Assembly (NCBI GenBank): GCA_023248815.1
Contig: JAHFDV010000007.1
Coordinates: 1-38,478 of the forward strand
Source: Myxococcales bacterium
Lineage (GTDB): Bacteria > Myxococcota_A > Polyangia > Polyangiales > Polyangiaceae
Direction of reading: 5' to 3'
DNA length: 38,478 nucleotides
Below the pieces are notes generated by a model. The model was not told the origin of the DNA. It searched no databases and saw only the letters and a list, made by a program, of their open reading frames with translations. This document shows positions 15,211 to 29,802 of the stretch, in pieces (the first letter of the stretch is position 1; each line of letters begins with the position of its first letter). A program made the translations under genes and the position numbers.

Positions 15211-15975
15211 TCAGCGATAGGTGAAGCGGATTTCGTGATCGCAGATCTTGAAGCTGTCGCCTTCGTTGATCTGCTTCCGCGCGACCCTTTGGCCGTTGAA
15301 TTCGATGCCGTTGGTCGAGCCCATGTCGACGAAGAAGTAGGCGCCGTTTTGATATTCGATCATCGCATGCTGACGCGAGACGTTAGGATCCTTCAACGTG
15401 TAGTCGCTCGACTGCTTGCCGCGACCGACGATGAAGCGGTCCTTGTCGACCGTGACCTTCTCGTTGTTGCAGATGAGGCTGAGCTGACCCGCCGGCTGTT
15501 GCGGCTGTGCGTTCGGAAAGCCGGGTGGCGGACGCGAAGGAACGGGCGGAGGCACGCTGCGACCGCGCGCCTGTTGCGAAGGCGAACGTGAGTCGTACCC
15601 GGGAGCAGGAGCGTTGGCGTAGTGACCACCGACGGGGGGCAGCGTCTGCGCAGCGGGTGGCATTGGCGCGGTCGGCCCGCGACTCGCAAGTGGCGGCGGC
15701 CCTCCGCGCGGGCGAGCGGGCGGCGGCGGAAGCACGCTTCCAATCGCGCGACGCGCGTTGTTCGCGGCGACGTTGGGCGGCGGAGCCGAGACACTGTTTC
15801 CAGGATACGGCGTGCGCGATCCGTAGCTGCGCTGTCGCGCGTACTGCTTCATCGACTCGTTGATGAGGTAGTCGACGCTGCACTCGAGCTCACGCGCCAT
15901 CTGCTCGAACGTGTCCCAAAGGACGTCGCGGCATTGAAACGTTCGCGCGCTCTTTCGATTCGGATCAGATGTCAT
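15211..15975 (-). CDS. FHA-domain protein with ribbon-helix-helix-like N-terminus and Pro-rich linker
   Basis: C-terminal FHA: FIVGRGKQSSDYTLKDPNVSRQHAMIEYQNGAYFFVDMGSTNGIEFNGQRV. N-terminus RTFQCRDVLWDTFEQMARELECSVDYLINESMKQYARQR is RHH-like. Confidence 0.88.
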   Translation of the reverse strand: MTSDPNRKSARTFQCRDVLWDTFEQMARELECSVDYLINESMKQYARQRSYGSRTPYPGNSVSAPPPNVAANNARRAIGSVLPPPPARPRGGPPPLASRGPTAPMPPAAQTLPPVGGHYANAPAPGYDSRSPSQQARGRSVPPPVPSRPPPGFPNAQPQQPAGQLSLICNNEKVTVDKDRFIVGRGKQSSDYTLKDPNVSRQHAMIEYQNGAYFFVDMGSTNGIEFNGQRVARKQINEGDSFKICDHEIRFTYR

Positions 15976-16058
15976 GGTGCGGCTGGCGAAAATGTATCGT
16001 TATCTCGAACAAACCACAAACTCATAGCGTGCACGAATCCAACACCTTTTCGAGGACC

Positions 16059-16131
16059 GGAGCTTCTCCTTTGATTCGCGGACGAGAGTTTCCTCTCCGG
16101 CCGGCTGCAAGCCCCCGCGAACGGAGTTCGC
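16059..16131 (-). other. Candidate structured 5' leader RNA of the FHA gene (three-way-junction-like fold plus competing hairpin)
   Basis: Minus-strand TTCGCGG...CCGCGAA (16075-16081/16115-16121) encloses GGCT-TGC-AGCC (16103-16113) and GAGAG-GAAA-CTCTC (16084-16097); GCGAAC-TCC-GTTCGC (16117-16131) shares one strand of the closing stem. Confidence 0.35.
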
Positions 16132-16145
16132 CCAACAAACACTGA

Positions 16146-16240
16146 GTAACGAGCGCAGACCCTTGGCGATTAGGCATCTCATTCGGCCTTCACCCACGTG
16201 AGGCCGCAATGAGGTGCCGTCGCCCTCTGGCGCTCGTTAC
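16146..16240. repeat. Long imperfect inverted repeat (~95 nt hairpin) with 11-bp perfect ends
   Basis: GTAACGAGCGC (16146-16156) / GCGCTCGTTAC (16230-16240), then GGCGA/TCGCC, GGCATCTCATT/AATGAGGTGCC, CGGCC/GGCCG and TCAC-CCAC-GTGA inside. Includes the stop codon of the 16237-17844 gene. Confidence 0.8.
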
Positions 16241-17844
16241 TTCGAGTTCATCGACGGCAATACGCAGTACTTCGCGAAGTCGCCGACGGTCACGATGTCC
16301 TTGGACTCGGATTCCGCGGGCTTTCCCTCTTTAGGAATGTCGCAGCTCCAGCCGCAATCGTCTTCTTTCGCGCACTTGGGAGCGGGCTCTTTCGCCCCGC
16401 CTTGCGCTTCGACGAGGCCGCTGTCGGCCTTCTTGCCCTTGTAGAAGTAGCCGAGCGCGACGAGCTTCGGCGTGCCTTCTTTTCCGTTCAAATACGGGAG
16501 GATAGCGTCGCGCGTCTTCGGTTCGCCGGGGCCGGAATCCATCGTTTGGATGGCGCCGCCGTAGGTGAAGAACTCGGTCATGCCCATCGCGCCGCCGCGA
16601 GGGAGATGCGCGAAGAACTCGGGCAAGCCCTTGGTCGTGATGCTCTTCAAAACCAGCGAACCGGCGATCCAGCGGACCTTCCACTTCTTCGCGTCGAAGA
16701 GTTTGTACATGCGCGGAACGACTTGGTCCTTCGGGAGCTCGCCGAGACGGGCGAACGCGAGATCGCGAACGCCATCGGGGGTCGAGTCGTCGGCCGCGAT
16801 CTCACTCAGCTTGTTGAGGAGATCGGTGTTGGTCTTGTCGACGTGGCCTTCGAGGGCCGCGAGCGCGTTCTTTCGGCGATCTTCGCTCGCTGCCTTGTTG
16901 GCGGCGACGCCCGTGAGGTAGTCGATGACGGGCTTTTGCGCGATCTTCTTCATCGCGCTGAAGATCTTGAAGAGCTCTTGGTCTTGATAGGCCTTCAGCT
17001 GGTTCTGAAGAGCTGCTTCGGGGACGTCTTTTCGCCCCTGCTTTTCGTTGGTCTCTTTGACCTCGGCCGTCTTCTTCTGAATCCACTGCGGCGAGTCGAT
17101 GCCCTTCGCGAGGGTGACGAGCTGATTGGCAGACTTGAGCTTGGTCTCGGGATCGCCGAGGTCCGAGACGAGCGCCGTGATGCGGTCGACCTTGGAGGAC
17201 TCTTCACGGATGAGCGGCGGAAGGCCGACGACGGCGGGGTTGCCGATCGCCTTGAACATCTGCTCGACGCTGTATTTCTGCGGCGCATCGAGGCGCGCGT
17301 CGAAGTCGGCGACGACCCAATTGACGATCGCTTGCTTCAAGCGCGTGCGGATCGCTTCGTTCGTCACGAGCGGCGGCTCGTTCGCGAGGATGGCGAACGC
17401 GGCGTCCTTCACGGGAACCGTCGGATCGCGATCCTTCGTGCCGTCCGCCTTCTTCTGTGGCGGCGCCTTTTTCATCTCGTCTTCGAGAAACGGCGTGAGC
17501 TTCTCGATCATGACCTTGCGCGTGCTGTCGGTCAGCGCGCTGAGGGCACCGGGCTTGTCTTGGTCGTCGGCGTCGTCGTGGAAGCCTTCGATGAGGACGG
17601 GAAGGGCGATGTTTTTGCCCGAGCGCGCCGGCATCTTGATGATCGACTCGAGCGCGTGGAGACGAAGCTCCTCCCCATATTTTTCGTGGGTCGCGACGGC
17701 ATAGAGCTTACGTGGCCCTTGCTGCGTTCGTTCCCAACGCTCCAAGTCTTTGTCACCGACGGCGCAGCCGCTCAGCGACAGCAGCATCGGCGCAGTTAGA
17801 AGGAGGGTCGTGAAGCGAAGGCGACGTGGGGTCGGCGTTCTCAT
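16237..17844 (-). CDS. Large lipoprotein with HEAT-like repeats
   Basis: MRTPTPRRLRFTTLLLTAPMLLSLSGCAVGDKD lipobox (LSGC); repeated alpha-helical segments (RLHALESIIKMPARSGKNIALPVLIEGF; KNALAALEGHVD; VRDLAFARLGELPKD). Start chosen at the MRTPTP methionine. Confidence 0.7.
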   Translation of the reverse strand: MRTPTPRRLRFTTLLLTAPMLLSLSGCAVGDKDLERWERTQQGPRKLYAVATHEKYGEELRLHALESIIKMPARSGKNIALPVLIEGFHDDADDQDKPGALSALTDSTRKVMIEKLTPFLEDEMKKAPPQKKADGTKDRDPTVPVKDAAFAILANEPPLVTNEAIRTRLKQAIVNWVVADFDARLDAPQKYSVEQMFKAIGNPAVVGLPPLIREESSKVDRITALVSDLGDPETKLKSANQLVTLAKGIDSPQWIQKKTAEVKETNEKQGRKDVPEAALQNQLKAYQDQELFKIFSAMKKIAQKPVIDYLTGVAANKAASEDRRKNALAALEGHVDKTNTDLLNKLSEIAADDSTPDGVRDLAFARLGELPKDQVVPRMYKLFDAKKWKVRWIAGSLVLKSITTKGLPEFFAHLPRGGAMGMTEFFTYGGAIQTMDSGPGEPKTRDAILPYLNGKEGTPKLVALGYFYKGKKADSGLVEAQGGAKEPAPKCAKEDDCGWSCDIPKEGKPAESESKDIVTVGDFAKYCVLPSMNSK

Positions 17845-18029
17845 GAGCGGCGGCGATGTTACCGGCTGAACCGCAAGGTGCCAAGTAGAGCGTTCTCCTT
17901 CCGAACGAGCCACCAGCGACCCTGCGGCACGAATCAGGTGTCCAGCGGTCGAAACTTGGCCGCACAAAGTCGACCGTCGTAGCGTCGCGCTCCAACTTTT
18001 CGTGCCCGCTCGAGCGCTCCCCCGCGCTT

Positions 18030-20834
18030 TTGGCCCGCATCTCGATGCAGAACGCCCCCCTCTTCACTCCTCAACGCCTCCGCAACGAATCCCTCCGAAA
18101 AGGGGACAACGAGAACCTGCGCAAAACGGATGGCCCCCCGCCGTCACGCAAGCGCGAGGTGCTCGCCCTCGGTTTCGCCACCATGGCCATTCTCGCGGCG
18201 CTTTCGCTCGCGAGCTATCGCCAAGGAGCAAACCACGAGGCCGTTGGCGAAAATTGGATTGGCCCGGTCGGCGAATTCGTCGCGTCGTGCCTCGTTCAGC
18301 TCTTCGGGGTGATGGCATGGGCGATCCCTTTCGAAGCGTTCCTCCTCTCTTTCCCCTTCATCTTCCGCAGCCACGAATCGCCGAAGCTCGTGAAGCACGC
18401 GGGCGACGTGCTGGTCGTCTTCGTGCTTGCCGCGCTCATCCACGTCGCGCATCCGACCGCGCATTCGTTCGGTGAAGCGCCCATCGCCGGCGTTCTCGGC
18501 GAAGTGTTCGGTGAGCTCAGTCGCTCGCTCTTTTCGACCATCGGCTCGTATGTCGTCGGCCTTTCGCTGCTCGGCTTCCTCTTCATCATGCGCGCGCGCT
18601 TCTCGTTCGTTCGTCTCGTCACGCGCGTCTCCGAAGTCGGCGCGAAGGGTGCCGTGGGAACCGCGAAGGGCGCACGCGAGGTGAAAGAGGCGTGGCAAAA
18701 AGCGCGCGATATCGAACGCGCACGTCTCGAAGAAGCGGCCAATGCGGCATTGCCGAAGATTGCCGAACGCCTCGATTTGGGAGCAATTGCCGCCCTTCCC
18801 GAAGAAGACTCGGATCCGGGATCGCTTCTCTTGGCAGGTGACGATGACGTGATCGAACGCGGACTGACGGGTCTCGCCGCGGATGTCGCACGCGAAATCA
18901 ATCCGCCAGCGAAGCCGAAGCGTGCGCCGAAGAAGAAAACGACAGCGCTCGACGTAGAAGCCGAGAAGATGGTTCTCGAGCGCCGCGATCTTCCGAAAGA
19001 GGACGAGTCGGAAGAAGAAGACGGCGAAGAGCTCGGCCTCGAAGAAGAGGAAGAAGAGATCGCGGAGGTCGAAGAGCCCAAAAAGAAGCGCTCGCGCGGC
19101 TCGAAATCCGACATCAAGGTCGACGCCAAAGCGAACGAGATCTCTGCGAGCCCAGCGGCCGTTGCCGTCGCTGCCTCGATGGGAAACGGCACGGCGGAGA
19201 ACGCCGAGCCAAAAAAGCGCGCGCTCAAAAAGGGACCTGCCGAGCCGACGATCGTCGACACGTCCGCGGCGCTCAAGCTCGAGGTGGAAGTCGAAAAAGA
19301 GAAAGAGAAAGTCGTCGTCGAGAAAAAGCGAAACGACTTCCATCTCCCCTCCATCGACTTTTTGGTCATGGGAAAGGTCGATCCGTCACTGCACGTCGAT
19401 CGCGAAACGCTCCTGAAAAATGCGGACCTTTTGATCAAGACCCTCGCCGACTACGGCGTCTCGGGCAAGGTCGAAGACATTCTCCCGGGTCCAACCATCA
19501 CGACCTACGAAGTTTCGCCCGCGGCCGGTACCAAGGTCTCGAAGGTTGCGTCGCTGGCGGACGATCTCGCGCTCGCGCTCGCACGCAAGGTTCGTATCGT
19601 CGCGCCGATTCCGGGCAAGAACCGCATCGGCTTCGAGCTTCCCAACGAACGCCGCGTTCCCGTGAATCTTCGTGAGCTCGTCGAAGACCGACGTTTCCAA
19701 TCGATGGATGCGCCGCTTCCCGTCGTGCTCGGTCGCGACAATCTCGGCAGTCCCGTCTACGCGGATCTCGCGAGCATGCCGCACGTCATCGTCGCCGGTG
19801 CGACGGGCGCCGGTAAGAGCGTCGGGCTCAACGTGATGCTCACGTCTCTTCTCTATCGCCGCACGCCCGACGAGCTGCGCCTCCTCATGATCGATCCGAA
19901 GGTGGTCGAGCTCGCGCCTTTCGATCGCATTCCGCACATGCTTCTTCCTGTCGTCACCGACATGAAGCAGGCCGCAAATGCCTTGAAATGGGCCGTCGAC
20001 GAGATGGAACGCCGCTACCAGCTCTTCGCCGACGCCGGCACGAAGAACATGGGGACCTACAACAACTGGGTCGAACGCGTTCAGCGTGGCGAATTGAAAA
20101 ATCCTTTGCCGAAGGTCGTCATCACGAAAGATCCGAACGGGTTTTTTGATGTCATCCCCGCGGAAGATGGCGAGCAGCAACTGCCGGAGAAGCTTCCTTC
20201 GATCGTCATCGTCGTCGACGAGTTCGCCGACTTGATGATGCAGCAAGGAAAAGACGTCGAAACGGCCGTGGCGCGTCTTGCGCAAAAGGCGCGCGCCGCC
20301 GGCATGCACGTCATCCTCGCGACGCAGCGCCCGTCGGTCGACGTCATCACGGGCATGATCAAAGCGAACTTCCCGACGCGCATCGCGTTCCGCGTGGCGC
20401 AGAAGGTCGACTCACGAACGATCTTGGACGAGATGGGCGCCGAGCACCTACTCGGTCGCGGCGACATGCTCATCAAGCTCAACGGCACGAACGAAATGAA
20501 GCGCGTGCAGTGTCCGATGGTGAGCGAAGAAGAAGTGCAAGAAGTGACCGACTTCCTCCGCTCACAGGGCGAGCCCGTCTACGACCAGTCGATCCTCAAG
20601 CCGCGCGACGAAGACGAGAGCGAAGACGAAGAAGATGCAGAGCAAGACACGATGTACGACGACGCCGTGCGCATCGTCGCCGACACGGGCCGCTGCTCGA
20701 CCTCGTGGCTCCAGCGGAAGTTGGGCCTCGGTTACAACCGCGCAGCTCGCATCGTCGAGATGATGGAAAAGCGCGGAATCGTGGGGCCAGCGAATGGGTC
20801 GAAGGACCGCGAAGTACTAATTAGCTCTCTCTAA
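18030..20834 (+). CDS. ftsK: DNA translocase FtsK/SpoIIIE
   Basis: N-terminal TM segments, charged linker, Walker A GATGAGKSVGLN, Walker B IVIVVDEFADLMM, LATQRPSVDVITGMIKANFPTRIAFRVAQKVDSRTILD, C-terminal winged-helix gamma-like domain (CSTSWLQRKLGLGYNRAARIVEMMEKRGIVGP). Confidence 0.96.
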   Translation: MARISMQNAPLFTPQRLRNESLRKGDNENLRKTDGPPPSRKREVLALGFATMAILAALSLASYRQGANHEAVGENWIGPVGEFVASCLVQLFGVMAWAIPFEAFLLSFPFIFRSHESPKLVKHAGDVLVVFVLAALIHVAHPTAHSFGEAPIAGVLGEVFGELSRSLFSTIGSYVVGLSLLGFLFIMRARFSFVRLVTRVSEVGAKGAVGTAKGAREVKEAWQKARDIERARLEEAANAALPKIAERLDLGAIAALPEEDSDPGSLLLAGDDDVIERGLTGLAADVAREINPPAKPKRAPKKKTTALDVEAEKMVLERRDLPKEDESEEEDGEELGLEEEEEEIAEVEEPKKKRSRGSKSDIKVDAKANEISASPAAVAVAASMGNGTAENAEPKKRALKKGPAEPTIVDTSAALKLEVEVEKEKEKVVVEKKRNDFHLPSIDFLVMGKVDPSLHVDRETLLKNADLLIKTLADYGVSGKVEDILPGPTITTYEVSPAAGTKVSKVASLADDLALALARKVRIVAPIPGKNRIGFELPNERRVPVNLRELVEDRRFQSMDAPLPVVLGRDNLGSPVYADLASMPHVIVAGATGAGKSVGLNVMLTSLLYRRTPDELRLLMIDPKVVELAPFDRIPHMLLPVVTDMKQAANALKWAVDEMERRYQLFADAGTKNMGTYNNWVERVQRGELKNPLPKVVITKDPNGFFDVIPAEDGEQQLPEKLPSIVIVVDEFADLMMQQGKDVETAVARLAQKARAAGMHVILATQRPSVDVITGMIKANFPTRIAFRVAQKVDSRTILDEMGAEHLLGRGDMLIKLNGTNEMKRVQCPMVSEEEVQEVTDFLRSQGEPVYDQSILKPRDEDESEDEEDAEQDTMYDDAVRIVADTGRCSTSWLQRKLGLGYNRAARIVEMMEKRGIVGPANGSKDREVLISSL

Positions 20835-20842
20835 AGAGGAAG

Positions 20843-20898
20843 GGCTTTGTGGCTCCGCCACGGGTTGCTTTGTTGGCTTTGCGTGGCTCCGCCACGGG
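20843..20898. repeat. Two tandem-oriented hairpin repeats between convergent genes, possible bidirectional terminator/REP-like unit
   Basis: GGCTTTGTGGCTCCGCCACGGG (20843-20864) and GGCTTTGCGTGGCTCCGCCACGGG (20875-20898), each containing the palindromic stem GTGGC-TCC-GCCAC. Confidence 0.75.
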
Positions 20899-20900
20899 CT

Positions 20901-21782
20901 TTACTTCAGTGCGTGCCCGAGCGGACCTTGCGCATCGAGATAGGCGCGAGCGGTTGCCCATTGCAGCTTTAGATCGACGACAGGTGCACATGCTTGAACC
21001 ACGTGCGGAAAGTCGTAGCCAAAATTGAAGTCCAATCCTGATTCCGTGACGTAAACACCGGCGAATCGCCCTTCATCGAATGAGGGCCCTTCGCCATCCA
21101 TGAAGCCGGATACAACGTCGGGGCCGCAGTTGTTGGGGTCCTTCGGGGCTTTCGCGTAGCTGCGCTTCGTGGTGCGCCATGCCTCGTGGACGCGCGCGTC
21201 GAGGAGCTTCACGAGCTCGCGCTTTTTGTCGGCACGGAAGGCATCTGCGCCGACTTTTGCCCCCGTGGCCCAGAGGAGCGTCGCGATCGTTCCATAACCG
21301 CTCGGGTACGCGCCCATGGTCTGAACATGGGCGTAAAGCGTGACGACGTGCGTGTCGTGAAATTTCACCTCGAAGTCGATACCGGTCGTTCCACAACCGT
21401 CGTTTCGAAGCTCGTTTTCATCGATGCGCAGCAACGTTTGCAACGAGATGTTCGGTGCCATTCGTTGTGCCGCGGGTCCCTCGATCGCGGGGGCAAATCC
21501 GGAGTGGTCTTTCGGCTCGTCATGCTCGCAGGTCCATTGGAGGCGCCGTGCCTTCACGAGGTTTGCTCCCTCACGTGCGCGGACTTCAAGCGCGGAGGCT
21601 GCCGGCACTGTCGTCTGCGGCGGCGCTGATGGCGCGATGCTCGCCGAAGGAGCGACCGTCAGGACCTCGCGCGGAGCTGGCGTTGGGGTCGCGGCGGGCG
21701 GCGAAGCACAGGCCGTGGCGAGCGGAAGCGCGAGAAGGCAGAGGAGGAAAGGGGAGAGAGGGCGAAGGAATGAAGGACGCAT
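20901..21782 (-). CDS. Lipoprotein of unknown function
   Basis: MRPSFLRPLSPFLLCLLALPLATACASPP lipobox-like; globular remainder; possible DUF3298/RsiV-like region (weak). Confidence 0.6.
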   Translation of the reverse strand: MRPSFLRPLSPFLLCLLALPLATACASPPAATPTPAPREVLTVAPSASIAPSAPPQTTVPAASALEVRAREGANLVKARRLQWTCEHDEPKDHSGFAPAIEGPAAQRMAPNISLQTLLRIDENELRNDGCGTTGIDFEVKFHDTHVVTLYAHVQTMGAYPSGYGTIATLLWATGAKVGADAFRADKKRELVKLLDARVHEAWRTTKRSYAKAPKDPNNCGPDVVSGFMDGEGPSFDEGRFAGVYVTESGLDFNFGYDFPHVVQACAPVVDLKLQWATARAYLDAQGPLGHALK

Positions 21783-22169
21783 CGAGGTCTTGAAGAAGAA
21801 ACGTCGCACCGATTGATCCGATTCCGAGTCGCCGATCTACGAAGGCGCGAACCTCAGAATTGGGCCGCCAGCACAGAGAATGTTATTCGTGGAAAGTGCG
21901 TGCGGGGGATGTGGGGAGAAGAAGGAGACTAAAATTCCTTCAGAAACCTGCGATCACGGTCGTTTAGAAGAAAGGGTGCCAGGAACCCAGATCGCACTTC
22001 TCGCGAGTCTTGCTTTACAACCTTGGGGTGCTAGACCCTGCCGCCTTGCCGGGGAACCTACGTGGCGAACTACAAAATTCGACCGACCAACAAAAACGGC
22101 TACAATTCTCCCCTCGGTGCCGGGCGCGACCTCGCGACCGCCTTGCCGTCAGCTGCTTTGTCCTCAGAT

Positions 22170-22481
22170 ATGAAGTCTGCGAAAGCGATTATGACGACCG
22201 AAGTGAGCGCTGCGCACGGAAACGCGGAGGCTGAAGTGTTCCCTACGAACGAGATGTCAGCGCGAGGGTTGAGCGTGAACGAGTCGGAGCGAACGCGCCT
22301 CATCGGCGAGATCTCGCGCGCGATTCAAGGCCCGACGACGCCCGCTCCTGCGCGTGCCGCAGGTCTCACACTGATCGGATGGCTCGCGCGCCGCATGCCT
22401 GGCGAGTGCGCGCATGCTCTCGGCGTCGAAGAGGCGCGCGAATCCGGGCGCCGCATTCGCGCAAGCCGCAATAAGCTCTGA
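22170..22481 (+). CDS. Small uncharacterised protein (103 aa)
   Basis: ATG at 22170 (MKSAKAIMTTEVSAAHGNAEAEVFPTNEM...); plausible helical C-terminus (RAAGLTLIGWLARRMPGECAHALGVEEARESGRR). An upstream in-frame GTG at 22062 is less likely. Confidence 0.4.
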   Translation: MKSAKAIMTTEVSAAHGNAEAEVFPTNEMSARGLSVNESERTRLIGEISRAIQGPTTPAPARAAGLTLIGWLARRMPGECAHALGVEEARESGRRIRASRNKL

Positions 22482-22568
22482 GGGCGTTTGCGGCAGAAAC
22501 GAGCGCGAGGGCGCGAGACATTTTTTGACCGGCCGATCCGCCGACATCGGTGATAAAACGACCCTCCG

Positions 22569-24740
22569 ATGGAAGGCATCCCACCGCCAATTTCTCGCGA
22601 CTCCGAGGATGTTGCTTGGGCGCTCCAAACGGCAGACTCACTTTGGAAGCGCAACGAACGCGTCGACGCGATCGTTTGGTTGCGTCGCGCCGCCCAGTCG
22701 GCTGGTGAAGTTGGAGACGACGAGCGTGCGGTGATGCTCGCGCGCAATGCTTCGGAGCTCACGGACTTCGTCGCGCGCCATCCTGCTCCCCCGGCGATTG
22801 GCACGTTCGGATCGATCGCGCCCATGCGTTCGAACGATGCTTCACGCGACTCACTCATTCCGGATCTCTCCGGCGGCATGCCGGACCTCTCTGCCGAAAC
22901 GCACATCGAAGAAGTCTCGATCTCGCTCGATCTCTCGAACATGAGCGCCGACATCCCGATCCCGAGCGCGCCGCCTTCACGTCCCGAAGAAGACGACGAG
23001 CCGCCGACGGACGTTCGCGTCTTCTCGCACAATCTTCCGAAGCCCATCATCTCTGCGGCGGCGCCATCCCCCGCGATCGAAGCCTTTCCCATCGTGGAGA
23101 GTCTTCCTCCGGCAGTCTCCAAAGCGCCCCCCGCGATGTCGGTTCCGGCACCCGCTGCGCCGACGCGCTCGTTTGCGCCGAATCGTCCCGCGCCTCCCGC
23201 CAAGAAGCCGCCTCCTCCCGTACCTGGAAGAAAAGCGCCGCCCGTTCCCAAGGCCGCTGGATCCGAGCCGCGCGCGGGTGCACCCCTTCCGCCTCGTGCG
23301 CCGCAAGCGCCTCAAGCCCCCCAAGCATCGGGCGGAGGCGCGTCGATGCGCCCGCGCGTTCCGTCGGCGCCTTCGTTACCCGTGCCTCCGCCGTATCCGG
23401 GCGCGGCAGCTCCGCAGGGACGTGCCGAGTCGCGCGTTCCAATCAGCGAGCCTCCGATCTCGATCGACATCGAAGCGGCGGCCGAGTCGATCCGTGGGGA
23501 AGGCCTCCGGGCAAGCGATCGCGCGCCTGCGCCGGTCCACTTGGTCGACGAGCCGGCTCGTGAGGAGATCACGGCCAACGCCGACCTCAACGATCCAGAG
23601 TTCGTCTCGCTCGCAGCCCCGCTCTCGTCGGCCGCGCGCGACCTTGCTCCGAAGAAGCCCCAGTTCGACGATTCGACGCTGGGCGCTTTGATGCCCGGCC
23701 CGCGCGCCTCGGGGTTTCAAGACACGAGTGCTGGCGCGATGGTTCCCGAGTTGAAGCTCGGCGAAGTGCCGATCTCCAAGGGCCCTGTCTCTGGCGTACC
23801 GAGCGCGGGCTTCGACGACGATAGCCGTGCGATTCCACTCGTGCGTCCTGCTTCCGAGCGTCCTTTCCGCGCGGCCTCGCGCGTCGAAGCGCCGGCAAGC
23901 GATCCGCTGCCCGTCGCTTCGAACGAAGACGTCGACGAAGACAGCACGGGGACCTTCGAGCATCCGCCCGAGCTCATTCGTCAAGCGACGGGTGAAACGG
24001 CCGGTCTCGTCGATCTCTCGGCGATCGAAGTATTTTCGGATCTCCCGGACGACGCGCGCGATGCATTCGCCGCCGAGGCCGAGCTTCACCACCTCGGACA
24101 AGACGAGGAAGTTTCCGACTTCGCGCTCGCGCTCGTCCTCGAAGGCGAGTTCGACGTGGCCGCGACGATCGTCGACGCGTCCGCCGAACGCATTCGCGCA
24201 GGCGCCGTGCTTCGTAGCCAGGGCACGATTGGCGATCCGATGGAGCTACGTCTCATCGGCACGAGCGCGCAATGCGCCGTCGCAACGTGGAACGCAGACT
24301 CCGTCGAACGCGCGTTTCGCACGTGTCCTTGGGTTGCAGAAGATCTCGCGAGCCTCGCCGATCGCACGCAAGCGCTCGTCGGAGTAACGATGGGCCCGCT
24401 CGCAGAACGACTCGATGCCGAGCTTCGTCAGGCGCTGACCGATTCGCTCGAAGTGAAACGTCTCGAGCCTGGTGAAGTACTCATCGAGCAAGGCAAGGGC
24501 GTGCCAGGCATTCTGCTTCTCGGCGTCGGTGAGCTCGAGTTCACGGACGGCGACGAGGTGAAGGGAATCGTCGAGCGCGGCAGCTTCGTCTTCGGAAGCG
24601 AAGTGCTCGGCGGCGGCAAGGCGCCGTTCGGTGTACGCGCAAGGTCCGAAGGGGCCGTCCTTTTGACCGGCTCACGTATGAAGGCGCAAGAACTCCTCAT
24701 GACGTGTCCGCCGCTTCTCGAAATCCTCGCGGGCATCTGA
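22569..24740 (+). CDS. Large Pro-rich protein with C-terminal degenerate cyclic-nucleotide-binding-like domains
   Basis: Pro/Ala-rich central region; C-terminus LAERLDAELRQALTDSLEVKRLEPGEVLIEQGKGVPGILLLGVGELEFTDGDEVKGIVERGSFVFGSEVLGGGKAPFGVRARSEG resembles a cNMP-binding beta-roll, with a preceding similar segment (LSAIEVFSDLPDDARDAFAAEAELHHLGQDEEV...). Confidence 0.7.
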   Translation: MEGIPPPISRDSEDVAWALQTADSLWKRNERVDAIVWLRRAAQSAGEVGDDERAVMLARNASELTDFVARHPAPPAIGTFGSIAPMRSNDASRDSLIPDLSGGMPDLSAETHIEEVSISLDLSNMSADIPIPSAPPSRPEEDDEPPTDVRVFSHNLPKPIISAAAPSPAIEAFPIVESLPPAVSKAPPAMSVPAPAAPTRSFAPNRPAPPAKKPPPPVPGRKAPPVPKAAGSEPRAGAPLPPRAPQAPQAPQASGGGASMRPRVPSAPSLPVPPPYPGAAAPQGRAESRVPISEPPISIDIEAAAESIRGEGLRASDRAPAPVHLVDEPAREEITANADLNDPEFVSLAAPLSSAARDLAPKKPQFDDSTLGALMPGPRASGFQDTSAGAMVPELKLGEVPISKGPVSGVPSAGFDDDSRAIPLVRPASERPFRAASRVEAPASDPLPVASNEDVDEDSTGTFEHPPELIRQATGETAGLVDLSAIEVFSDLPDDARDAFAAEAELHHLGQDEEVSDFALALVLEGEFDVAATIVDASAERIRAGAVLRSQGTIGDPMELRLIGTSAQCAVATWNADSVERAFRTCPWVAEDLASLADRTQALVGVTMGPLAERLDAELRQALTDSLEVKRLEPGEVLIEQGKGVPGILLLGVGELEFTDGDEVKGIVERGSFVFGSEVLGGGKAPFGVRARSEGAVLLTGSRMKAQELLMTCPPLLEILAGI

Positions 24741-24742
24741 AC

Positions 24743-26350
24743 ATGCGCCCGCGCATGAAGGCGCTCTTCTCGTTTCTCGTTCTCTTCGCGATCGTCCTCG
24801 TCGCCGGACCCGCGTTCGCGCAAGACGCAGCGCAAGGCGTTCCGCAAATCGCCCAAGATGCAGTGCAGGCAGCGCAGCACGTGACCCCCGAGGCCCACGA
24901 GACGGGCCCCATCTTGAAGCGAGTCGCTACGGACTCGGAGCTTCTTCGCATCGTCCTCGGCCTCGGCCTCGCGCTCGGACTTGCCGTCGCAGCGACCCAC
25001 CCTTTCGTCCGCCGCATCGAACGCCGCCTCGGTCTCACGCTCGTGACGGCGAGTGGTCTCCCCTTCATTTTGATGGGCCTCATCTTTCGTCATCCGCGCG
25101 TCGGCATTCTCACGGATAGCGTCCTCGCCGACCTTCGTCCCGCGCTCGAGTTCGGCGTCGGCTGGCTCGGCTTCGCCGTAGGCATGAAGTTCAACCTCAG
25201 CGAGCTCGATCGCGTCCACCCGAAGACGGGCGCGATTCTCTTCGCAGAGACGGCCATCCCCGTCGTCACGACGACGATCGCCTGCAGTCTCTTCTTCATC
25301 TTCATCGACTACACGCAGACGTTCCCGATCCTCGCGTCGATTCACTCTTACGCGGACTTCAAGCGTGCGAGCTACGAGCTGAGTCGCCATGCGTCTTTCC
25401 GCGATGCGATTGCGCTCGGCGCCTGCGCTGCGCAAGCGGCACCCGTCGCTGCGCTCGCGATTGAGCGAAGCTCGGGATCGCGCGGGGCACGTATTCTCGA
25501 GCACGTTTCGCAGCTCGACGACGTCGCGGGGATCTTCGTCATCTCGCTCGTCTGCGCCTTTTTCCGCCCAACGGAATCGTTCGCGGCGTGGAAGCTCCCG
25601 CACATCGCGTGGCTCTTCGTCATTCTCGGCCTCGGCGGAGTGCTCGGCATTCTCGCCTACGTGCTCGTTCGTTCGGCAAAGACGCGCACCGAAGAGATCG
25701 CCTACCTTCTCGGCGCGATCGCGCTCTCTGCCGGGATGAGCGGATACCTCGGGATCTCGCCCCTTATTACTGGGGCCATCGCTGGAGCTCTTCTTGCGAA
25801 CTTGCCGCAGAAAGAAATGGCGCGCCTCAAGGAGACGATCGAGCAGGTCGAGCGTCCCTTGTTCCTCATCTTCTTGCTCGTCGCGGGCGCCCTCTGGGAT
25901 CCGCGCGGATGGCAAGGTTGGGTCCTCTGCCCACTCTTCGTGCTCTCGCGCATCGTCGGGAAGCTCGTCGGCGCACGTGCTGCGAAGCGGGTCGGACCCG
26001 AAGAGCTTCCCGATGCAACGACGATGGGACTCGCGCTCTCGCCGCAGTCACCCATGGTGATCGTCACGGTCGTCAGTTTCGTCACGATTTACAAAGGCGC
26101 CGACGATTCGAGCCATCTTCCTTGGCTGATGACGGCCTGCATCTTCGGGGCGCTCCTCACCGAGGTCACCGTGCAATGGATCGTCCGTGTGCGCGGCGGC
26201 CTCTCGCTCGATCCGAGGTCCGTCGGGACACATTCGTTGATGCCGCCTCCCGATCCCGATGACCCCGCCATCAGTCTCAGCATGCCGCCTGCGCCCGTCG
26301 ATGTGACCTCGCCGCCGCCCACCACCGACGTCGATCCGGAGCACCCATGA
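24743..26350 (+). CDS. CPA2-family cation:proton antiporter (first of tandem pair)
   Basis: Signal-like N-terminus plus multiple TM segments; VSQLDDVAGIFVISLV resembles the CPA2 ion-binding DD helix; Pro-rich C-terminal tail. Confidence 0.78.
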   Translation: MRPRMKALFSFLVLFAIVLVAGPAFAQDAAQGVPQIAQDAVQAAQHVTPEAHETGPILKRVATDSELLRIVLGLGLALGLAVAATHPFVRRIERRLGLTLVTASGLPFILMGLIFRHPRVGILTDSVLADLRPALEFGVGWLGFAVGMKFNLSELDRVHPKTGAILFAETAIPVVTTTIACSLFFIFIDYTQTFPILASIHSYADFKRASYELSRHASFRDAIALGACAAQAAPVAALAIERSSGSRGARILEHVSQLDDVAGIFVISLVCAFFRPTESFAAWKLPHIAWLFVILGLGGVLGILAYVLVRSAKTRTEEIAYLLGAIALSAGMSGYLGISPLITGAIAGALLANLPQKEMARLKETIEQVERPLFLIFLLVAGALWDPRGWQGWVLCPLFVLSRIVGKLVGARAAKRVGPEELPDATTMGLALSPQSPMVIVTVVSFVTIYKGADDSSHLPWLMTACIFGALLTEVTVQWIVRVRGGLSLDPRSVGTHSLMPPPDPDDPAISLSMPPAPVDVTSPPPTTDVDPEHP

Positions 26351-27678
26351 TCCGCGCAACCTTTCTTCTCGTTCTCGTCGTGTTGCTCGTCGCCGCGGCG
26401 CGCTCGTTCCTTCCTGCCGACGCCGACACCTCGCTCATTGGTTCTGGCGCAGCGCTCGCTTTCGGATTCATCCTGCTCGCTTCGCTCCAAGCGGGCGCGA
26501 TCTTCGGCGGCATCAAGCTTCCGCAGCTGACCGGCTATCTCGTCCTCGGATTTCTCGCGGGGCCGTCGGTTCTCAATTTCGTCACGCATCGAATGGTCGA
26601 CGACATGCGCCTCGTCAACAACGTCGCCATCGGATTGATCGCGCTCTCCGCCGGAAGCGAGCTCAATTTTCGTCGCTTGAAACCCAAGCTGCGCGCGATC
26701 TTCTCAATCACCATCGCCGCGCTCCTCGTCGCCGTCGTCGTCATTGGCGGCGCCGTTCTGACGCTCGGTACGATGACGCACTTCTTGCCATTCCTCGAAG
26801 GCATGACCTTGTGGCAAAAGTCCGTGGTCGCGCTCACGATGGGCGTCGTCCTCTCCGCGCTCTCGCCCACAGTCGCCCTCGCGCTCATCGGCGAGACGGG
26901 AACCGCGGGACCCATCAGCGAGACCATCCTCGGCCTCGTCGTCTTCGCCGACCTCTTCATCGTCTTCGCTTTCGCCGGCGTTCACGCGCTCGGACAGGCC
27001 GCTTTCGCGACCGCGGGCGCCTCGGCAGGCGGCATGGCGACCGAAGTCGTGCTCCATATCTTCGTCTCACCTCTCGTCGGTCTCGCGCTCGGAGCCGTGC
27101 TCGCGATCTATGTGAAGCGCGTCAACGTGCGCGTCGCGCTCTTCGTCTTCGGCATCTGCTTCCTCGGCGCCGAAGCGGGAAAGCGCCTTCACCTCGATCC
27201 GCTCCTGATGTGTCTCTCGGCAGGGCTCTTCATCGAAAACCTCACCGACATCCACGGCGCGCGCCTCATCAAAGACATCGAAGCTGCTGCCGTTCCTGTT
27301 TTCGCGATCTTCTTCGCGGTCGCCGGCGCGGGGCTCGAGCTGCACGTCTTCACGGCGACGGTCGCCATCAGCTCCCTCATCCTCGTGCTCGTCCGCGCGT
27401 TCGGGATGATCGTCGGCAGCCAAATCGGAATGGCGATTGGCCAGGTCCCGCAGGCGCATCGAAAGACGATTCCCTATGGCTTGCTCTCGCAATCGGGTAT
27501 CGCGATCGGCCTCGCGCTTCTCGTGAAAAATCACTTTCCGGCATGGGGTGACGGCGCCAGCGCCTGCCTCCTTGGAGCGGTCATGATCAACGAGCTCGTC
27601 GGTCCCGTGCTGTTTCGTCGCGCGCTTCTCGCGAGCGGCGAAGCGGGACGCAAAGAAGTCGTCGCCGGGAGTCACTGA
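26347..27678 (+). CDS. CPA2-family cation:proton antiporter (second of tandem pair)
   Basis: GIKLPQLTGYLVLGFLAGPSVLNF N-terminal TM motif, LSPTVALALIGETGTAGPISETILGLVVFADLFIVFAFAG core helices; ATGA overlap with the first antiporter. Confidence 0.85.
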   Translation: MIRATFLLVLVVLLVAAARSFLPADADTSLIGSGAALAFGFILLASLQAGAIFGGIKLPQLTGYLVLGFLAGPSVLNFVTHRMVDDMRLVNNVAIGLIALSAGSELNFRRLKPKLRAIFSITIAALLVAVVVIGGAVLTLGTMTHFLPFLEGMTLWQKSVVALTMGVVLSALSPTVALALIGETGTAGPISETILGLVVFADLFIVFAFAGVHALGQAAFATAGASAGGMATEVVLHIFVSPLVGLALGAVLAIYVKRVNVRVALFVFGICFLGAEAGKRLHLDPLLMCLSAGLFIENLTDIHGARLIKDIEAAAVPVFAIFFAVAGAGLELHVFTATVAISSLILVLVRAFGMIVGSQIGMAIGQVPQAHRKTIPYGLLSQSGIAIGLALLVKNHFPAWGDGASACLLGAVMINELVGPVLFRRALLASGEAGRKEVVAGSH

Positions 27679-27712: not shown

Positions 27713-29086
27713 TCAGGGACAGGGCATCGCGAGACGCGCACGGCCCGTGATTGCGGTCACGACGCGGAGATAGTTCGCGTGAGGATAGACACCCGTCACT
27801 TCGATGCGATCGACCGCGCCGCGGAAGCACGCATCGCCCTGGCCGAACTCGAGTGAGTCCTTGAGCTGCGTTTTGAGGGCAACGAAGCGCTCCGTGAGGT
27901 TGAGGCGCATTGCTTTTCTTGCCTGATCGCGAATGCCGTCGCCGTCCGCCATCGCTTTCAACTTGAGAAGAAAGCTCTTCGTTTCGATCGTCGGCTCGAG
28001 ATCCGGAATCGTGAGCTCGTTGTCGACGAGCGTAGGGTGACCCGTGAGGAAGAGATCGCCGTCGAGATCTTCGTCGAAGCCGAACTTGTGCACGGGTCCA
28101 CGAATGCGGAGCTTGAGGACGAGCTGATCGTCCGAGGCGTACACCTCGGGCTCGGTCATGTAGAGCTTGTAGAATTCCTTCGAGAAGAAGTACTTCCCGT
28201 CCGTGAACGTCATGCTCATCGCCTTCGCGAGCTCGTCGTAGGTTGCGGCGATCGGAATCGTCACCGTGAAGGGGCCCGAGGGAATCGCGGCAACGTTGGA
28301 GAGGGGTGGCAACGTCGACGTGTCGTTCGCGGGAGAGCACGGGAGCGTCACTTGTGGCGCGACGATGAGCGCGAGATCTTTCTCGATGCCGTCGGCGAGA
28401 ACCGTCGGGCCGGCCTCGACGCCGAGAACACGAAGCTCAGCGCAGCCTTTCGCATCGCCCAAGGGAAACTCGTAGGGCTTCTTCACGCGCGCGTAGGCTT
28501 CGCCGATCAGTGGCTTCAAGTCCTGCGAAAATGCCTTCAATTGCGCGTCGATCTCTTTTGCGATCTTGGGCAACACGTCGGCCACGGCATCGGCGACCTT
28601 CACGCGACGATCCATCGACGTGACTTGGACGTCGGTGGACTGAAGCTTCACGAGGTAGTCCGAATTGACGACGGGCTCCGCGAGAACCTTCACGTCGATG
28701 AGAACGTTCATCGTGACGAGTGGCATGTCGAGCACGGCCGCAACGTGCGTGTCGAGAACGACGCGACCCTGCGAGAAGGAGACCGCGAAAGGATCGCGCG
28801 TCCACTCGTAGTTGCGGTCGCCGCGAACGAAGGGAAACGTACCTTTGCCCGTTTTGGGCACGACACCGTCGATGGACGATCGGAAGCTCGTTCCGGAGAC
28901 GGCTACGTGCGCGACGACACGCGTCGGTGCGGGATCCGGCAGGGGAGCCATCGCCGCTTTCGATGGGCGCGACGGATACACCGCGCCGAACCGAGTTCCG
29001 CACCCGAGCATCGTCACGAGCGTGATCGAGGCGAACGCCCTGGAAAGGTCGACGCTGCAGAAGGAGAAAGCCGAGCTGGTTTTCAT
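27713..29086 (-). CDS. DUF4403-like lipoprotein
   Basis: Lipobox-like TMLGCGTRF; lipid-binding-like beta-rich repeats resembling DUF4403 (KLQSTDVQVTSMDRRVKVADAVADVLPKIAKEIDAQL...; EVYASDDQLVLKLRIRG; PTLVDNELTIPDLEPTIETKSFLLKLKA). Confidence 0.68.
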   Translation of the reverse strand: MKTSSAFSFCSVDLSRAFASITLVTMLGCGTRFGAVYPSRPSKAAMAPLPDPAPTRVVAHVAVSGTSFRSSIDGVVPKTGKGTFPFVRGDRNYEWTRDPFAVSFSQGRVVLDTHVAAVLDMPLVTMNVLIDVKVLAEPVVNSDYLVKLQSTDVQVTSMDRRVKVADAVADVLPKIAKEIDAQLKAFSQDLKPLIGEAYARVKKPYEFPLGDAKGCAELRVLGVEAGPTVLADGIEKDLALIVAPQVTLPCSPANDTSTLPPLSNVAAIPSGPFTVTIPIAATYDELAKAMSMTFTDGKYFFSKEFYKLYMTEPEVYASDDQLVLKLRIRGPVHKFGFDEDLDGDLFLTGHPTLVDNELTIPDLEPTIETKSFLLKLKAMADGDGIRDQARKAMRLNLTERFVALKTQLKDSLEFGQGDACFRGAVDRIEVTGVYPHANYLRVVTAITGRARLAMPCP

Positions 29087-29802
29087 CTTTTGGAAACCTC
29101 TTTTCGCGAAAATTGGATGCAAAGGTTCTCGCCAGGCGTTCGTTGCGTGAGAAGTGGCGACCATCCGCGTCGGAGTCGTTCCTCGGACGTGGCGAGAAAT
29201 ACGCTCGGCTTGGAGCAGAGAAAGGCAAACGCCCGTTCGAGCGTCGGTGTTCCCGGTTGCGACTGAATTTCGATGCGATCGAGCGCGGGCGCTTCACCTT
29301 TGTCGGGTGTGACGCCGAGGCGTACTTCGCGCAGCCCCGTTTCATCGGCCGAAGGCATCACGTGAACGGCGCGCAGTCGCACGACGAATCGCGTTCGTTT
29401 GGCGGTGGCACGCACGACGAGATTGCGCGGAAGGTGCACGGCGATCCCTGCGGCGCCCTTGGCTCCCGAGACCGCAATTTGCTTCGGCGCCGCGCGCGTC
29501 GCGAGGGTCCACGTGAGCGGCTCTTCGACGATTCCGCTCGGGCCTTCGAAGCGCAACGTTGCATCGACGGCTCGAGGAGCCCCCGGGGCCGCGAGCGCGA
29601 AGAACAGGTCGGCGTCGGCGGGACCACGCTCATCCACTCCGAAGCTCACGTCCTCCGTCGCGATGACGAACTCGTTTCCGACATCGACGTGAACGAGCGT
29701 GAAGATCGGAAGTACGACGTTTGCTTCGGCGACTCGCTCACCCTGCACTGCGCCGAAAAAAGCGCACACGGATCCGATTGCCGCTCCGAGCCACGGCTTC
29801 AT
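29083..29802 (-). CDS. Secreted protein of unknown function
   Basis: Signal peptide-like MKPWLGAAIGSVCAFFGAVQGERVAEA; 4-bp overlaps with genes on both sides. Confidence 0.65.
   Translation of the reverse strand: MKPWLGAAIGSVCAFFGAVQGERVAEANVVLPIFTLVHVDVGNEFVIATEDVSFGVDERGPADADLFFALAAPGAPRAVDATLRFEGPSGIVEEPLTWTLATRAAPKQIAVSGAKGAAGIAVHLPRNLVVRATAKRTRFVVRLRAVHVMPSADETGLREVRLGVTPDKGEAPALDRIEIQSQPGTPTLERAFAFLCSKPSVFLATSEERLRRGWSPLLTQRTPGENLCIQFSRKEVSKR

Follow-up and report, generated by a model that had tools for sequence, protein, structure and literature searches.

Does a protein that resembles the cyclic nucleotide-binding domains work together with the two antiporters encoded directly behind it, or do the antiporters form a unit by themselves? 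The question is raised by three successive genes, termed here A, B and C, in a stretch of 38,478 nucleotides from a Myxococcales bacterium of the family Polyangiaceae (the window; Table 1). The first-pass annotation of this DNA presented the three as a single unit, with a gap of 2 bp between A and B and an overlap of B and C by the sequence ATGA. The open reading frames lie exactly as it described, with the stop codon of A followed after 2 bp by the ATG start codon of B at 24743.

Two features of the surroundings lie outside this question. The gene for a DUF4403 protein (27713-29164, minus strand) is convergent with C, and no relatives of this protein were found in the fetched neighborhoods of related genomes. 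The B protein of the window has a signal-peptide-like N-terminus ahead of the first core helix (24743-24880), and this is absent from the close relatives at loci L103, L139 and L140.

Table 1. Positions of genes A, B and C, their subregions and the conserved upstream neighbors within the window.
Feature	Position	Strand	Description
ftsK	18030..20834	+	Conserved upstream neighbor of A
g8	22062..22481	+	Small conserved ORF, 139 aa, between ftsK and A; no Pfam match
Gene A	22569-24740	+	723 aa; N-terminal ~75 aa conserved; a long linker rich in Pro and Ala leads to the C-terminal beta-roll region, whose CNBD is degenerate
Conserved C-terminal region of A, residues 491-723	24039..24737	+	Possible first beta-roll and CNBD (about residues 610-723)
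Gene B	24743-26350	+	Divergent CPA2-type antiporter subunit, 535 aa; acidic D260 and R371-P372 conserved
ATGA start/stop overlap, end of B and start of C	26347..26350	+	
Gene C	26347-27678	+	CPA2-type antiporter subunit, 443 aa; S173-P174 and D202 conserved; lacks a cytosolic regulatory domain

Gene A and its genomic setting

The C-terminal part of A had been suggested to comprise one or two cNMP-binding beta-rolls. The window protein taken singly matches the PF00027 profile over residues 630-701 with 21.7-25.9 bits, below the cut-off of 27.5. Within the A family the same Pfam profile matches 25 of 26 members, the best at 5e-13, and a profile of the A orthologs matches the regulatory CNBDs of PKG and PKA in the PDB at 6.7e-10. 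Judged by these two sets of matches the second beta-roll is real and is a true relative of the CNBD, so that this half of the suggestion is borne out. The first beta-roll is plausible, and was undetected by any search on its own.

Alignment to the CNBDs of PKG and PKA places A residue 676 at the position of the Glu in the GE motif of the phosphate cassette, where none of the 26 sequences has Glu, the residue being Ala, Pro, Gly or Ser. Residue 685 lies at the position of the phosphate-binding Arg, and is Ala in 25 of the 26. There is an invariant arginine, Arg690, but it lies away from the phosphate-Arg position. The cassette had been described as degenerate from the window protein, and the loss of its Glu and Arg positions across the 26 orthologs makes the suspected loss of the ligand site true of the whole A family. 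Cyclic nucleotide binding by A has probably been lost, to go by these residues.

We searched for each of A, B and C in 145 related genomes, and then fetched the loci. A is preceded by ftsK on the same strand at 28 of 41 A loci, beyond which there are mostly a HEAT-repeat gene and an FHA gene on the opposite strand, as recognized by their Pfam domains. Among the 13 loci where ftsK was not seen upstream, several are truncated at contig ends and a few have room for the gene yet lack it. B or C is found near A at just two of the 41 loci, these being the window itself and a locus in genome G009, at which A and B have two other genes between them. In relatives that carry both on one contig (G019, G058, G078 and G055, complete or near-complete) the distance between A and the antiporters is ~0.9-2.8 Mb. 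The distribution of A among 88 genomes of the same family is also independent of the pair. A (≥60 bits) is present in 12 of the 16 Polyangiaceae genomes that contain the close form of B-C (C ≥200 bits) and in 53 of the 72 that do not (Fisher test, p = 1, from counts made by hand and with the borderline genome G002 left out).

The linkage to ftsK, the megabase distances and the independent presence together argue that A is not a co-conserved partner of B-C. The three-gene unit is thereby reduced to two, since B and C are co-conserved and A is not. We conclude that A belongs to the ftsK neighborhood as a protein in its own right, and that its adjacency to B-C is mostly an accident of gene order. 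From its position near cell-division genes one may guess at a scaffold role. In the window this Polyangiaceae neighborhood (15211-24740) runs FHA, HEAT-repeat, ftsK, g8 and A, where both g8 and A are uncharacterized ftsK-linked genes. A PQQ/BamB-like propeller gene is found between g8 and A in many relatives, and is not at that place in the window.

These data bear directly on the earlier model of a three-part antiporter complex that has A as its regulatory subunit. The close spacing of A and B in the window would suit it, and there is one known exchanger that is gated by a CNBD, the sperm Na+/H+ exchanger SLC9C1 (PMC6052114), which is among the structural matches to our models of B and C. SLC9C1 is responsive to cyclic nucleotides and has its CNBD fused to the exchanger along with a voltage sensor (PMC6052114), whereas A is a separate, unlinked protein with a degenerate cassette. 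A regulatory subunit of this kind is hard to reconcile with a gene that accompanies ftsK far more often than B-C, that occurs independently of B-C and has lost its ligand cassette, and whose sole other nearby case has two genes between A and B. We therefore reject A as an antiporter regulatory subunit on the basis of gene distribution; the model is largely refuted, and we regard it as very improbable.

The pairing of B and C

Both B and C match the Na_H_Exchanger profile PF00999 (69.1 and 73 bits, respectively, with a cut-off of 26.2), and domain profile scans found no RCK or TrkA-N/C domain in either. This agrees with their original description as tandem CPA2-type antiporters lacking RCK. Several B orthologs have no PF00999 match in Pfam. 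The NCBIfam model of the CPA2 subfamily 2a37, TIGR00932, is matched by B with 23.9 bits and by C with 47.0 bits, below its cut-off of 238.3. No DUF1538 was found in B or C in a Pfam scan, so that they lie outside the UmpAB family proper.

The structures of the monomers are predicted with fair confidence for B (pLDDT 81) and good confidence for C (pLDDT 88), and the best match of both models in the PDB is NapA, with Foldseek E values of 2.5e-8 (B) and 2.9e-10 (C) and TM scores normalized to the target of 0.67 (B) and 0.71-0.75 (C). Both are predicted to adopt NapA/NhaP-like folds. Sequence searches of the solved structures gave no matches for the single sequences of B and C or for the B profile; the C profile matches the NHEs and NapA.

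In C, D202 aligns with the transport Asp of NHE1 and is Asp in 39 of 40 orthologs, while Ser173 (40/40) and Pro174 (39/40) form the SP break of TM5. This SP motif, nearly invariant in C, is lacking in B. Residue 260 of B is acidic (D or E) in all 38 orthologs, and a second conserved group lies near the predicted TM10, comprising Glu370 (35/38), Arg371 (34/38) and Pro372 (37/38).

B and C overlap by the 4 bp of ATGA at every one of the 22 named loci that have both genes, scanned with one peptide pattern. Across 331 genomes of the phylum there are 84 matches to the B profile above 100 bits, and for at least 74 of them, with positions transcribed by hand, a C match lies no more than 6 kb downstream in the same orientation. 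The two genes are adjacent in 42 of these 74 pairs and farther apart in 32, mostly by ~3 kb. Of the 10 B matches with no listed C several are near contig ends, and B is seldom found without C. The sampling is almost entirely of Myxococcota, with one match in a metagenome-assembled genome labelled Acidobacteria. The genes that flank the pair vary by lineage, indicating that the pair itself is the unit, and no conserved third gene was found up- or downstream of it in the lineages compared. Nor were natural fusions of B and C seen by eye among the B and C profile matches of the phylum. Genomes G099 and G114 keep both genes megabases apart, and adjacency is thus not strictly required. At their loci (L156, L158, L165 and L166) B adjoins a gene for an outer-membrane FadL/TodX-like protein, and these genomes provide a natural test of the need for linkage.

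When other CPA proteins from the same genome are included in a tree, B and C each form one side of a branch, with SH-aLRT values of 99 and 97; the tree comes from a quick search and its branches are long. The two separate supported groups indicate that the split is old and that B and C have diverged in parallel. The distances within B and within C mirror each other (r = 0.94), which is expected from vertical inheritance alone. B-C is a strongly conserved unit of two separate ancient clades.

Several relatives at the order and phylum level have a distant form of the pair. Here one or both of TrkA and TrkH come after B, and a C of ~1500 residues comes last; the genes often overlap by 4 bp. At locus L169 (2205-10904) the long C is separated from B by both TrkA and TrkH, and at L171, L174 and L177 by at least one of them, as assigned by Pfam; L173 has the same arrangement as L169 by clustering. 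The remaining 3-kb spacers between B and C are presumed to be similar, that is, to contain Trk genes. The long C has a C-terminal extension of ~1000 residues with at most a weak Pfam match to AAA_16. A further variant has an MscS-like gene upstream; at locus L168 (5096-11233) this gene precedes one copy of B and two of C, with 4-bp overlaps.

B and C as proposed subunits of one antiporter

We propose that B and C are two nonidentical subunits of one CPA2-type cation/H+ antiporter, most likely a heterodimer. The pairing, the gene overlap, the conserved acids and the lack of linkage to A are observed, and the monomer folds are predicted. The dimer, the transport activity and the ion are what we infer, and we put the chance of the whole proposal at about even. 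A heteromeric antiporter had been thought plausible from the window, and is now backed by the conserved pairing of B with C. The two proteins would probably be co-translated by virtue of the ATGA overlap, and most likely associate through their scaffold domains, where NapA and KefC form homodimers. Each keeps its ion-binding acid (D260 in B and D202 in C), so both protomers probably transport, and would do so by the usual elevator mechanism. B has in addition its conserved Glu-Arg-Pro, close to predicted TM10, and C has the SP break in TM5. The cation is likely to be K+ or Na+, where K+ is favored by the interleaving of the distant form of B-C with TrkA and TrkH.

B and C share the NapA-like predicted fold and the conserved transport Asp with NapA and KefC (CPA2, PF00999, TC 2.A.37). 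These are homodimers (PMC11150392), in contrast to the pair of distinct ancient clades found here, and the C-terminal RCK (TrkA-N) domain of the RCK-gated CPA2 antiporters of the KefC type is absent from both B and C. Paired homologous membrane proteins are found in the two-component Na+/H+ antiporters UmpAB (DUF1538) and PsmrAB. The products of umpA and umpB, which are overlapping genes, form a heterodimer by co-immunoprecipitation (PMC5484666). B-C resembles UmpAB in comprising two homologous subunits encoded by overlapping, co-conserved genes, but UmpAB and PsmrAB are unrelated to it, smaller (7 and 3 TMS in each subunit, respectively) and outside the CPA superfamily. A search of the literature on paired CPA2 antiporters, on KefC and TrkH in Myxococcus and on CNBD-regulated antiporters in Myxococcota gave nothing relevant except a survey of Myxococcus transporters (PMC3924187). 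This lists the Myxococcus xanthus protein Q1D5P4 (TC 2.A.37.6.1; 432 aa, 14 TMS) as a single protein of a novel CPA2 subfamily, with no partner noted. It is a distant CPA2 member of B-like length from the same phylum as B, and, compared by description only, may be a B-type subunit.

A heterodimer is the simplest account of the lasting association of B and C, given that KefC and NapA work as homodimers. However, both subunits keep the acid, and two co-expressed homodimers would fit this as well. In the main rival reading B and C are transcribed together to serve a common cation homeostasis, but each forms its own homodimeric antiporter, and the two complement one another in ion or pH range. The predicted fold of each is complete and its acid is conserved, and the two genomes with B and C at distant loci are consistent with independence. 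We nevertheless consider it unlikely, for it leaves unexplained why the pairing is near-universal and of fixed order, why the overlap has been kept over large divergence, and why B so rarely occurs without C. Transport by C alone, with B as a regulatory or assembly subunit, is less probable again. The failure of several B orthologs to match PF00999 and the missing SP motif of TM5 would be understandable in such a subunit, but the conservation of Arg371 and above all the invariance of the acid at 260 would be unexpected in a degenerate, transport-dead B, and make this reading improbable.

If B and C do act as one antiporter, nonidentical CPA2 subunits would leave one protomer free to specialize, for example in gating or in pH sensing, and the two-gene set means that mixed-dimer mutants could be easily built. 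A poorly described branch of the CPA2 family would also gain a candidate function. The neighboring cNMP-like gene A should not be read as the regulator of B-C. The well-studied CPA antiporters NapA and KefC are homodimeric, and an ancient nonidentical pair would depart from that. We tentatively suggest, at rather less than even confidence, that B-C represents a class of obligately heterodimeric CPA2 antiporters that is Myxococcota-wide and ancestral to the phylum. Its distant form, with TrkA, TrkH and the extended C, may then be a single K+ module, where one operon provides for both K+ uptake and K+/H+ efflux.
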